Source: Marinobacter sp.
GTDB lineage: Bacteria > Pseudomonadota > Gammaproteobacteria > Pseudomonadales > Oleiphilaceae
Direction of reading: 5' to 3'
Assembly: GCA_014359475.1 (NCBI GenBank)
Contig: JACIZI010000002.1
Span: 230,082 to 294,081 of the forward strand
DNA: 64,000 nucleotides
Made by a program: the position numbers and the translations under genes. Shown piece by piece: positions 2,253 to 63,737 of the stretch. The notes under the pieces are model-generated. The model saw only the letters and a program-made list of their open reading frames with translations. It made no database searches and was not told where the DNA came from. The first letter of the stretch is position 1; each line of letters opens with the position of its first letter.

Positions 2253-3131
2253 CTATTGGTCGGCCTGACCAAGAATGCGCTCGACGGCCGGGCCGGGCAC
2301 GCCGCTGGCCCGGACTATGCCATAAAGAGTGTCCCTGACTTCATCGATACGGGCGACTTCCACCACCTGGTACTGGCGGCAGACCTCATCATGGATGCTG
2401 GTGGGGGCGGCGAAATAGCCCAGCCCCTTGCGCCCGAACACTTTGATCAGGGCGCTGTCATCTACTTCTGCAGCCACTCGGATCTTCACCCGGTTGGCGG
2501 AAAACCAGTTCATCAGGGATGTGAAATAGGGGGCATCCACCGATGTGGCCAGAAACGGCTGGTTGTTGAGGCTCCGGGGGAAATCCCGGGTCAGGGTCTG
2601 GGCCAGGGTTTCTGCGGCGAACAATGACATGGCCGAACTGGCCAGCTGGCGGGTGTGAAAGTGGCTCGCTTCTCCCGCTTCCGGTTCCCGGTCTGTCAGC
2701 ACCAGATCCAGCTCACGGCGACTGAGTTGATCCAGCAGAGCAGAGTGGGAGCCAGTCTGGCAGGTGAGTTTGACCTCGCGAGCAAGCTCCATGGCAGGCT
2801 CAAGCAACTGGTACGCAATCAGTTTGTGGATTGAAGCGGAGATGCCTGCTGCGAGCGTCAGCGGCCGACCCTCTGGTGGTTGTTCGAGAAGATCCGATAG
2901 TGCCTGGGCTGTGGTGAACATTTCATTGGCGTACTGGAATACCGTCTTGCCCAGTTCGGTTAGGATCAGCCGTCTGCGTTCGCGGCGGAAAAGGGCCCCT
3001 CCCAGATTGTTTTCCAGGGTTGCCAACTGGCCGCTCAGGGTCTGCGGGGTGAGGTCCAGAAGCTGACTGGCTTTGGCGATGCTGCCTTCCCGGGCAATGA
3101 CCCAGAAATAGTGCAGGTGACGGTAATTCAT
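2253..3131 (-). CDS. nhaR: LysR-type regulator NhaR
   Basis: A 292-residue LysR-family activator. The start MNYRHLHYFW at 3131 matches the family's usual N-terminus; the longer frame upstream is not needed. Residues 1-60 form the winged helix-turn-helix (EGSIAKASQLLDLTPQTLSGQLATLE), close to NhaR of E. coli, and the rest is the ligand-binding fold. In E. coli NhaR responds to sodium and activates nhaA and osmC. No nhaA lies next to this gene, so the target here is not shown. The TetR gene on the same strand ends 34 bp upstream (3166), so the two may be transcribed together. Confidence 0.85.
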   Translation of the reverse strand: MNYRHLHYFWVIAREGSIAKASQLLDLTPQTLSGQLATLENNLGGALFRRERRRLILTELGKTVFQYANEMFTTAQALSDLLEQPPEGRPLTLAAGISASIHKLIAYQLLEPAMELAREVKLTCQTGSHSALLDQLSRRELDLVLTDREPEAGEASHFHTRQLASSAMSLFAAETLAQTLTRDFPRSLNNQPFLATSVDAPYFTSLMNWFSANRVKIRVAAEVDDSALIKVFGRKGLGYFAAPTSIHDEVCRQYQVVEVARIDEVRDTLYGIVRASGVPGPAVERILGQADQ

Positions 3132-59163: not shown

Positions 59164-59898
59164 TCAGCGATGTAGCCGGTAGATTTCTGCCACGCGGGCC
59201 AGTTTCGGCTGCTTCTGCGCAATCCAGTCCTTCATGGGTGCCGGCAAGCGCCGGGTATCCGGCCAGGGCACCGGGTACTTTTCCGGCATGAACAGCGGGG
59301 CCAGCAGCGAGGCTGCAGTCAGATCCGCCAGGGTGAAGCCGCCCCCCACCAGGTAACCGGATGTCTGATAAGCCGCGTCGAGCTCTTCCAGCAGACTGTC
59401 GAGTGTCTGCTGTGCCTTGTCGGCGGTTTTCTGGTTGATTTTCATCCAGTCCCGCATTACTTCATCCACCCGGCTGAACCCCAGGCGTAACAGGTACCGG
59501 TTGTAAACGGGGGTTTGTGCCGTCAGCATCGGCGCAACCTGCTTCGGTCTTTGTAGCAGGTAATGATAGGCCCAGGTACGTATGGCCGGGCCGGCCTCAT
59601 CGTCCAGGCGTTGCTGCCACGCCAGGGCATCGGCTTTGCTGTTGGCATCATCGCCGCTCAGGCTTTTTTCCGGAAAGTGGCGCTCCAGGTAGTCGAGAAT
59701 TTCTGCGGAGCCCTGCACGATCTCGCCGTCGTGATCCAGTACCGGCACCGAGGACCCGGGTGCCATGCGACGAATCTGTTTGCTATGAGTGCCGGGGAGC
59801 AGGAACACTGGCTGGTAGTTCAGGTTCTTGTAATCCAGCGCCCAGCGAACCTTTTCACTGAAGTGGGAAATGGCAAACTGGTAGAGTTTCATTGTCAT
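59164..59898 (-). CDS. Glutathione S-transferase family protein with a repeat-borne start codon
   Basis: A 244-residue protein with an N-terminal thioredoxin-like GST domain (KLYQFAISHFSEKVRWALDYKNL, conserved Ser/Pro region RMAPGSSVPVLDHDGEIVQGSAEILDYLE) and a helical C-terminal domain. The predicted ATG at 59898 (MTMKLYQ) lies in the last unit of a nine-copy 7-mer array, and no ribosome binding site lies within 60 bp upstream. An ATG two codons further in (59892, MKLYQ) fits the family better but also lacks a ribosome site. Real start therefore uncertain. Substrate unknown. Confidence 0.85.
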   Translation of the reverse strand: MTMKLYQFAISHFSEKVRWALDYKNLNYQPVFLLPGTHSKQIRRMAPGSSVPVLDHDGEIVQGSAEILDYLERHFPEKSLSGDDANSKADALAWQQRLDDEAGPAIRTWAYHYLLQRPKQVAPMLTAQTPVYNRYLLRLGFSRVDEVMRDWMKINQKTADKAQQTLDSLLEELDAAYQTSGYLVGGGFTLADLTAASLLAPLFMPEKYPVPWPDTRRLPAPMKDWIAQKQPKLARVAEIYRLHR

Positions 59899-59956
59899 CG
59901 GTCATCGGTCATCGGTCATCGGTCATCGGTCATCGGTCATCGGTCATCGGTCATCG
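59894..59956. repeat. Nine-copy 7-mer tandem array (GTCATCG)
   Basis: Nine exact copies of GTCATCG (CGATGAC on the minus strand), 63 bp. It covers the GST start codon and its whole ribosome-binding region. Each unit contains an ATG on the minus strand. An exact array such as this should change length by slippage. Confidence 0.95.
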
Positions 59957-60012
59957 CTTGTTGCCACCAGCCTAACGCTTTACAGCGGATTTGGTAACCT
60001 GAAACCGTTAGA

Positions 60013-60126
60013 ATGCACCTTTTGCACCTTTTGCACCTTTTGCACCTTTTGCACCTTTTGCACCTTTTGCACCTTTTGCACCTTTTGCACCTTTTGCACC
60101 TTTTGCACCGTAGTTCCGGGGAGTGA
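60013..60126 (+). CDS. Possible small ORF with His-Leu-Leu repeats
   Basis: A 37-codon frame from ATG 60013 to TGA 60124-60126: Met, ten exact HLL triplets, then HRSSGE. It stops 3 bp before the lipoprotein ATG, so translation of the two could be coupled. Because the repeat unit is 9 bp, gain or loss of a unit adds or removes one HLL and keeps the frame. No ribosome binding site precedes it, so it may never be translated. Confidence 0.2.
   Translation: MHLLHLLHLLHLLHLLHLLHLLHLLHLLHLLHRSSGE
60015..60109. repeat. 9-mer tandem array (GCACCTTTT), 10.6 copies
   Basis: Ten exact copies of GCACCTTTT (60015-60104) plus GCACC (60105-60109). It ends 20 bp before the lipoprotein start codon (60130), leaving just the ribosome binding site GGGGAG (60118-60123). 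On the plus strand an ATG (60013) opens a 37-codon frame across it that ends at 60126. Confidence 0.95.
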
Positions 60127-60129
60127 TTA

Positions 60130-61089
60130 ATGAACGATCGGATCATAATGTTCGCAGCCATGGGTCTGGCTACCCTGCTGTTCACAGGATGTGCCTCCAC
60201 GCCGCCCGAATCCGGCCTGCCTCAGGGGCTGGACACCATGCGCTGTGGTCAGGCCAGGATCGAATTTATCTGGCGACCCGAAGCCCGCAAGCTGGACCTG
60301 ACCCTGGACGGGAAAACCCGGCGCATGGTGCCGGTAAAAAGCGCGACCGGTGCCCGTTTCGAGGTACCCACCAACGAAAAGAACTATTTCTGGAACCACG
60401 GTGAGACCGCACAGCTGCAAATTGACGGAGAGCTCTATCCCCAGTGTGTGGACCCTGGTGGTCTGGAGATGCCCTTCACGGCCAGTGGCAACGAGCCTTT
60501 CTGGCGGGTAGAAGTGGTGCCTGGTCAGCTTTGGCTGGAAGTCGTCGATGAGCCAGTGGTGGCCATGTCCTGGGAGCTTCAGGAGAAGCGACGCAGCAGC
60601 CGCATTATCAAGGCCGAAGACCAACTGCGGCAGCTTGAACTTCGCGCGGGCCGTCAGCTTTGCCGCGATTCCATGACTGGCATGCCTCACCCGTATCAGG
60701 TTCAGTTATTCCTGAATGGCAAGATGCATCAGGGATGTGGCGGCAGCCCGCAGCAGCTGATTCGCGGTATTGACTGGCATGTGACGGATCTCAGGGGCTT
60801 GCCGGTGGTGACTGACCATGAACCCCGCCTGCGTTTCGCCGACGAAGGAAGACTTGGCGGCAATGCAGGGTGCAACGATTTTACCGGTGTCTATGAGCTG
60901 TCCGGCGAGGGTGTGCGCCCAACTGTCCGCGCCTCGACGATTAAAGCCTGCAGCGACAATGTCATGGAGCAGGAGCGCCAGTTTCTGCAGATGTTGGGCA
61001 AGGTTGTCCGGTTTGATATCAGTGGATCGGGTGAGCTGCTGTTGCTGACGGGTGACGGGGATCGTCTGGTGGCTGTCAGGGAACCATAG
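60130..61089 (+). CDS. MliC-COG3650-META domain lipoprotein
   Basis: A 319-residue lipoprotein; signal peptide with lipobox FTGC (Cys21). Three parts follow. Residues about 35-110 resemble the MliC lysozyme inhibitor domain (RCGQARIEFIW, SATGARFEVP, YFWNHGETAQLQIDGELYPQC). About 115-205 resemble COG3650 (TASGNEPFWRVEV). About 210-315 are a META/HslJ domain (VTDLRGLPV, GGNAGCNDFTGVY, ASTIKACSD). MliC proteins protect peptidoglycan from host or predator lysozyme. The ribosome binding site GGGGAG is good; everything upstream of it is tandem repeat. Domain names are from pattern memory. Confidence 0.82.
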   Translation: MNDRIIMFAAMGLATLLFTGCASTPPESGLPQGLDTMRCGQARIEFIWRPEARKLDLTLDGKTRRMVPVKSATGARFEVPTNEKNYFWNHGETAQLQIDGELYPQCVDPGGLEMPFTASGNEPFWRVEVVPGQLWLEVVDEPVVAMSWELQEKRRSSRIIKAEDQLRQLELRAGRQLCRDSMTGMPHPYQVQLFLNGKMHQGCGGSPQQLIRGIDWHVTDLRGLPVVTDHEPRLRFADEGRLGGNAGCNDFTGVYELSGEGVRPTVRASTIKACSDNVMEQERQFLQMLGKVVRFDISGSGELLLLTGDGDRLVAVREP

Positions 61090-63119: not shown

Positions 63120-63737
63120 ATGAAGATTTTCGAGACCCGTACCGCGCCCAATCCCCGCCGGGTGCGCATGTTCATGGCCGAGAAGGGGCTGCTGGAAGAA
63201 GCGGAATTCGTGGAAGTCGATCTGCAGAAAGGAGAGAATCTCACCCCGGAATTCGCCGCCCGCAACCCCATGAAGAAAGTGCCAGTGATGGAGCTGGATG
63301 ACGGTACCTGCATCGCCGAAACCATGGCCATCTGTCGGTATTTCGAGGAGGCCTACCCGGGTACTCCGACGTTGCTTGGGGACACCCCGGTGGAAAAGGC
63401 GCTGATAGAGCAGTGGCTGCGCTGGCTCGATTTCTATTTTTTCATGCCCACCGGCATGTGTTTCCAGCACACCACCGGTTATTTCAAGGATCGGATGACG
63501 CCATTCCCCGAGTGGGGGGAAGAGTGCGGCAAAGGGGTGCAGAAGTTCATGCATTTTCTGGACAAGCACCTGGATGGCAGGGAATACCTCTGTCTGGATC
63601 GTTTTACCGCCGCAGATATCAACGCTTATGTGACTCTGGGCTTCGCCCGGGTGGTACAGATCCGCATCGAGCCTGAGCAGAAGAACCTGCAGGCATGGTA
63701 TGACCGCATTAACCAGCGGGCTTCCGCCACCGCCTGA
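63120..63737 (+). CDS. Glutathione S-transferase
   Basis: A 205-residue GST. N-terminal thioredoxin-like domain (MKIFETRTAPNPRRVRMFMAEKG, then NPMKKVPVMELDDGTCIAETMAICRYFEEA, which contains the Val-Pro and Glu-Thr glutathione contacts). Helical C-terminal domain (LDRFTAADINAYVTLGFARVVQIR). The first-strand Thr/Ala-Pro-Asn context is like beta and fungal-type GSTs. A different branch from the GST at 59164. Clear ribosome binding site upstream. Substrate unknown. Confidence 0.9.
   Translation: MKIFETRTAPNPRRVRMFMAEKGLLEEAEFVEVDLQKGENLTPEFAARNPMKKVPVMELDDGTCIAETMAICRYFEEAYPGTPTLLGDTPVEKALIEQWLRWLDFYFFMPTGMCFQHTTGYFKDRMTPFPEWGEECGKGVQKFMHFLDKHLDGREYLCLDRFTAADINAYVTLGFARVVQIRIEPEQKNLQAWYDRINQRASATA

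Follow-up and report, generated by a model that had tools for sequence, protein, structure and literature searches.

Two exact tandem arrays in one divergent spacer of Marinobacter: a heptamer that carries the start codon of a GST gene and a nonamer ahead of a lipoprotein gene

Coding-region heptamers at gene starts occur in known phase-variable genes; repeats of the neuO type are translated, with copy number modulo 3 setting the frame, and uspA2 of Moraxella catarrhalis is a surface protein gene in which repeats have been studied. TAACTGA arrays of Beggiatoaceae, Cyanobacteria and Bacteroidetes are exact heptamers located directly before start codons, mostly without a canonical Shine-Dalgarno (SD) sequence, and they are sporadic and strain-specific and contain stop codons in forward reading (MacGregor, 2015; PMC4679880). 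In that system one fixed unit was present in 169 sets in one genome, with the start codon outside the unit, and binding or translational roles were suggested, termination-reinitiation not being among them in the sections of the paper drawn on here (PMC4679880). In Haemophilus influenzae hmw1A and hmw2A, the number of heptamers upstream of the gene, where they sit in the promoter, alters expression (PMC2651432). The AGAT repeats of uspA2 are 4-mers of a pathogen that lie in the 5'UTR between promoter and start codon (cited in PMC4679880), and heptamers of the neuO type are found at the 5' end of the gene (PMC13001214).

The locus described here lies in a 64,000-nt stretch of Marinobacter DNA, hereafter the window, and consists of a GST gene and a lipoprotein gene in divergent orientation with a 231-bp spacer that holds two tandem arrays. 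Its features are as follows.

59164..59898, minus strand: gene for a GST-like protein of 244 aa (MTMKLYQF...), intact (GST_N_3, 4.7e-19)
59894..59956, minus strand: heptamer array, nine copies of CGATGAC on the GST strand, with an ATG in every copy
59957..60013, no strand: non-repeated spacer between the arrays, 57 bp
59964..59972, minus strand: SD-like GGCTGGTGG, ahead of copy 1 only (anti-SD duplex)
59977..59982, minus strand: tentative GST -10-like TAAAGC, suggested by its resemblance, by eye, to TTACGCTTAGGCC and TATGCT stretches of relatives
60009..60014, plus strand: likely lipoprotein -10 box TAGAAT (7 of 26 spacers of relatives carry TAGAAT or TAGAAC)
60014..60109, plus strand: nonamer array, 10.7 copies of TGCACCTTT, the predicted start of the lipoprotein mRNA leader
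60118..60123, plus strand: lipoprotein SD sequence GGGGAG, intact (duplex of -7.6 kcal/mol)
60130..61089, plus strand: gene for a lipoprotein of 319 aa with META (3.6e-24) and MliC (3.3e-7) domains

A preliminary description of this DNA had reported two exact, unrelated arrays between divergent GST and lipoprotein genes, and TRF confirmed them: (GTCATCG)x9.0 with period 7 and (TGCACCTTT)x10.7 with period 9, both at 100% match and with scores of 126 and 192, respectively, as compared to 62 for the runner-up in the window. The gene identities hold as well, as the domain matches listed above show, and a lipobox, LLFTGC, was recognised by eye in the lipoprotein. The arrays adjoin as had been stated, but across a gap of 57 instead of 58 bp, and of the two starts said to carry an array only that of GST does so: the 7-mer covers the GST start codon, whereas the 9-mer ends 20 bp before the lipoprotein start. 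The view that such arrays are unlikely by chance was borne out. In 40 first-order Markov copies of the window, a single array of 20 nt was detected in total (at least 2.5 copies, at least 20 nt, units of 4-40 nt), and a sample of 727,226 bases, drawn from outside the window and equal to about one fifth of the genome, contained two arrays of at least 2.5 copies (2.8 and 3.4 copies) and none of at least five copies for units of 4-40 nt. Since both the Markov copies and the genome sample are array-poor, two long arrays sharing one 231-bp spacer represent a real oddity. The zero count allows about 15 five-copy arrays per genome as a 95% bound, at which about 0.003 pairs within 60 bp would be expected under even placement and about ten times as many if arrays were confined to intergenic DNA, which was taken as one tenth of the genome (85 contigs, 99.78% complete). 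Each array is an exact short tandem repeat at a position relevant to expression, as in contingency loci. The arrays are thus real and an unusual variant of the known simple-sequence repeat loci, while a role as a switch is hypothetical. We propose that the spacer contains two independent, recently expanded slippage arrays, that copy number on the GST side, which may change in the population, sets GST translation via reinitiation and that the nonamers lengthen the lipoprotein leader, a proposal for and against which the case seems to us evenly poised.

Comparison with other Marinobacter, to which all nine named relatives belong, revealed a GST match in 115 of 124 genomes and a lipoprotein match, in some cases partial, also in 115 of 124, the own genome being included in both counts. 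Both genes were present in 34 of the loci fetched, among them seven named loci that partly duplicate the numbered genomes; in these 34 the pair is divergent and no array was seen, the sole repeat flagged being a 12-bp GCTG triplet inside a coding region (L034). The preliminary description had pointed to orthologous spacers in relatives as a check on its reading, and this check proved informative: arrays of at least 2.5 copies and at least 18 nt were found in none of 122 GST-start regions, for which 420 nt upstream were scored. These regions stem from 113 numbered genomes and the nine named loci, GST starts of 86 genomes having been fetched additionally; L016 and L023 lack a GST match, the GST starts of those two genomes (G059, G028) being counted via L103 and L116, and the split GST matches of G072 were left out. 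Moreover, three-copy patterns of each unit occur in one of the 124 Marinobacter genomes, its own, and in none of the other 123, and in the own genome the three-copy GTCATCG pattern was detected at this locus only, with seven matches all within one array. In contrast to TAACTGA, which recurs at many loci of a genome, the unit on the GST side is locus-specific, and it contains the gene's own ATG. Both arrays appear private to this lineage, as far as the genomes examined show, and because they were not found in relatives, a set with one assembly per species, they are evolutionarily labile between species.

The nearest spacers (L005, L006 and L024) have a single GST start, ...CCCGATGACCATGAAG, with the SD sequence AGGAGA eight nt upstream, and CATNGTCATCG is kept in all three. 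Since these spacers hold one CGATGAC start, the GST array is most simply explained as an amplified initiation site. CGATGAC is found at the GST start in five of the 122 regions, namely L005/L015 and L006/L017, which are duplicates, and L024, and it is from these few relatives that an ancestral state with a single CGATGAC would be deduced. After each array had been reduced to a single unit, the spacer aligned to L024 with a score of 42.9 (200 shuffles: 17.1 ± 7.2, maximum 45.3), to L006 with 37.0 (15.1 ± 7.7, maximum 37.7) and to L005 with 37.3 (15.7 ± 7.6, maximum 40.3), and each time the best of the shuffles scored higher than the spacer itself. Other changes are seen in the same region of relatives: the GST-lipoprotein spacer of L025 (G098; about 420 bp) carries at 1125-1431 a MITE-like insert with 35-nt inverted repeats that are 97% complementary (arms at 1125-1159 and 1397-1431), and it seems that this spacer tolerates insertions. 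In L012 (593-1269; G051), the GST gene beside the lipoprotein gene is apparently split over two frames, tblastn having matched it in two pieces that overlap (residues 20-244 and 168-244).

Both arrays might also be neutral, heptamers and nonamers being generated in intergenic DNA by replication slippage and lasting only briefly; they would then possibly lower GST expression, but not as a selected or used switch. The lack of these two arrays in the relatives examined is in line with this explanation, as is another Marinobacter in which a heptamer array lies at a stop codon; moreover, heptamers are the commonest long-repeat unit in most genomes, for which polymerase slippage was proposed (Mrazek, 2007, cited in PMC4679880). 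On the other hand, the genome as sampled is otherwise array-poor, yet two long perfect arrays share one spacer, and both are located at positions relevant to expression. We consider neutral slippage the main alternative and a real possibility, although we lean against it. Even if the arrays are neutral, they suggest that slippage can multiply a start codon, and gene-start annotation should allow for that.

On the GST strand, the ATG of copy 1 is found at 59954-59952 and that of copy 9, at 59898-59896, is the GST start. Reading from all ten ATGs showed that copies 1-7 each encode MTDDR*, a mini-ORF of five codons, that copy 8 leads to MTDDNETLPVCHFPLQ*, a dead end of 16 codons, and that among the nine copies only copy 9 matches the GST frame, with which Met3 of GST (59892) is also in frame. 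The UGA that ends each mini-ORF overlaps the AUG two copies on (AUGA). The heptamer unit and its position at the gene start recall a classical contingency locus, in which heptamer number would shift the GST frame modulo 3. This candidate was ruled out by reading from every ATG: within the CGATGAC repeats a TGA recurs every 21 nt in all three frames, and ATGs upstream of copy 8 stop after five codons. Whatever its frame, a ribosome would meet a TGA within 21 nt and thus cannot translate across the array, unlike in heptamers of the neuO type, and the repeats are translatable in frame at no copy number. Modulo-3 reading is thus contradicted by the sequence and hardly credible, since only stop readthrough would rescue it.

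The best anti-SD duplex of the array was calculated for copy 1 (-5.5 kcal/mol), followed by copies 2 and 3 (-1.5 and -1.4 kcal/mol), whereas it was zero for copies 4-9. Relatives' GST genes showed a median of -7.4 kcal/mol (n = 111, after removal of the nine named loci and of all regions in which the match started beyond residue 1), ten of them being weaker than -5.0 kcal/mol. The RNA of the GST array is less structured than shuffled sequences (z +1.68), and as single-stranded DNA the 7-mer array, unlike the 9-mer array, did not surpass all of 200 shuffles in folding. A consensus scan detected no sigma-70 pair for GST, nor was a consensus promoter or terminator found by scan in 59850-60200.

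We propose that a single ancestral CGATGAC start site was tandemly amplified to the present nine copies. Ribosomes loading via the SD-like sequence would meet copy 1, synthesize MTDDR and stop at the UGA overlapping the AUG of copy 3; after each stop they would either reinitiate by AUGA coupling, proceeding along copies 1-3-5-7-9, or be lost, and in the last step they would start GST at copy 9, copy 8 being the 16-codon dead end. Heptamer number would in this way set GST translation, with a steep loss as the array lengthens. We infer from the stop/start geometry that a strong, length-dependent reduction of GST translation is the likeliest outcome and that parity would be a refinement: if overlap reinitiation dominates, an odd copy number would mean GST ON and an even one OFF. 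A counting switch of this kind, in which the ribosome advances two repeats per terminate-and-restart step and reaches the GST start from an odd or the dead-end frame from an even number of copies (modulo 2), appears improbable to us. In a simple walk model, the odd/even contrast survived only with a strong preference for the overlapping AUG (e.g., 0.5 vs. 0.05 for neighbours) and was gone at equal preference. As an alternative to the walk, direct SD-less initiation may take place at copy 9 or at Met3 (59892).

Among unidirectional gene pairs, the AUGA (-4) overlap is the most frequent one, and coupling was nearly abolished at a distance of about 20 nt (PMC10666635), and coupling was strict in 13 of 14 tested overlapping pairs (PMC6728339). 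In Escherichia coli with active recycling factor, upstream ORFs of 3-5 codons near the SD sequence gave no downstream reading, whereas those of 6 and 7 codons did; without recycling factor, upstream ORFs of 4-7 codons allowed it (PMC9955659). Since MTDDR has five codons, the heptamer walk may be very inefficient. The GST array shares the -4 AUGA overlap with these systems at every second heptamer junction; however, two ORFs were coupled in these studies, whereas the GST array would need as many as four couplings in a row between ORFs of five codons (PMC6728339; PMC10666635; PMC9955659). As in hmw1A and hmw2A, heptamer number upstream is predicted to alter expression, but the array is the initiation codon itself and not part of the promoter (PMC2651432). 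A search of open-licence papers for repeats linked to reinitiation, to phase variation or to start codons brought up no description of such a staircase of start codons. If serial stop/start overlaps do control GST, the locus would be a repeat switch with a parity rule and an output that also falls with length, on/off state and level both being set in one array; one 7-bp unit more or less would flip GST expression according to parity (modulo 2), the known rule being modulo 3, and this would explain how heptamers can work where frame reading cannot. Furthermore, the GST array offers a ready-made natural series for reinitiation frequency on SD-less ORFs of five codons.

On the lipoprotein side, the 9-mer array begins at the last base of the putative -10 TAGAAT, which would place the array downstream, no sigma-70 pair being detected by consensus. 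TAGAATGCAC is also present in the nearest spacers L005 and L024, and L006 has TAGAAC. The array would then form most of the lipoprotein leader. Its predicted geometry would match that of uspA2, with a 9-mer in place of a 4-mer. Because the 9-nt unit lies upstream of the SD sequence, the lipoprotein reading frame is unaltered; the array would lengthen the leader between the -10 box and the SD sequence and have, at most, a tuning effect on mRNA level or on translation. In single-stranded form, the DNA of the 9-mer array, the unit of which holds the palindrome TGCA, surpassed every one of 200 shuffles in folding, for either strand (z -6.3 and -5.0), and self-pairing of TGCA could promote slippage. 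A length-tuned 5' leader of the lipoprotein mRNA that acts on stability, as a ribosome standby or as a Rho-loading stretch is possible rather than probable. Its location between the likely -10 and the intact GGGGAG, the C/U-rich composition of the array RNA (33 C, 41 U, 11 G and 11 A of 96) and the studied precedent of AGAT copy number in the uspA2 5'UTR (cited in PMC4679880) point to such a leader. By contrast, TGCA can pair with itself and the leader RNA is predicted to form a weak zipper hairpin, being weakly more structured than shuffles (z -1.16), so that the leader is not simply open.

The preliminary description had gone further and regarded the spacer as one hypervariable module controlling both genes in opposite or combined fashion. 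Both arrays do lie in the same spacer, and a divergent arrangement of GST and lipoprotein genes is found elsewhere in the genus as well (34 loci). Contrarily, the units differ, the arrays belong to different predicted transcripts and would act at different levels (start codon vs. leader), no shared element or other link between them was seen, and none of the 122 regions has an array. A joint hypervariable switch is thus not supported beyond the position of the arrays and seems to us distinctly unlikely.

In principle, any ATGANNN heptamer array on a start codon would share much the same stop/start geometry as the GST array. ATGA arrays, defined as four or more ATGA in heptad phase, were present in 34 of 390 genomes of the order as compared to 35 of 390 for the reversed control AGTANNN, and in 21 of 326 genomes of the class as compared to 24 of 326, the own genome being among both ATGA counts. 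Reading of the arrays covered the loci returned by the searches and comprised 51 distinct ATGA arrays (29 from the order and 22 from the class, the window's included), the near-identical records L172 and L173 being counted once. Of these 51 arrays in Gammaproteobacteria, 11 hold the start of an ORF of at least 120 aa, taken as the longest open frame, and this start is at an odd copy in five of the 11, i.e., there is no parity bias. Independent support for the start is given for the window's GST by its homologues and for L181 by a FAD_binding_3 domain from residue 3; L182 encodes a lipid A acyltransferase family protein with the domain from residue 15, the ORF of L184 had no Pfam match, and others presumably resemble HexR, DinB, IspD and globin.

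A gene start within or at most 40 nt after the array was found for 14 of 51 ATGA arrays in sense and three of 51 in antisense orientation, and for eight of 55 (sense) and six of 55 (antisense) AGTA control arrays. The sense count differs from the antisense count (Fisher p = 0.0065) and from both control orientations taken together (14/110; p = 0.027), but not significantly from control sense (p = 0.15), a control that is impure since L194 and L259 are AGTAATG arrays, i.e., ATGA arrays in another phase, L259 being the same array as L234. The excess is partly expected because ATGA arrays supply their own start codons; it is equivocal and was not taken as selection. Selection for ATGA heptamers was accordingly rejected as a candidate, their frequency being equal to that of the reversed control and their position equivocal. 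The same frequencies, the lack of parity bias and the equivocal, biased gene-start excess argue for neutral slippage.

Heptamer load is strongly genome-specific: G744, G203, G597 and G620 are very rich (e.g., 71 ATGA pattern hits in G744), and most genomes have neither the ATGA nor the AGTA pattern. L172 and L173, identical at 3019 of 3025 bases, carry on the minus strand at about 1493-1525 an ATGA heptamer array of five different units with diverged NNN on the start of an ORF, to which the walk 1-3-5 leads; ATGA is kept in all units, but the search pattern itself required ATGA. We take this ORF to be HexR-like.

In the window, the strand opposite to the first GST gene carries, some 3 kb away, a second gene of the GST family (63120-63737), with no array detected before it by TRF. 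In another Marinobacter (L162, 1501-1550; G109:C1, about 3561332-3561380), a CAGTAGC heptamer array of about seven copies begins at the in-frame TAG stop of a gene that is presumably lipase-chaperone-like, and there it is a stop codon that has been amplified.
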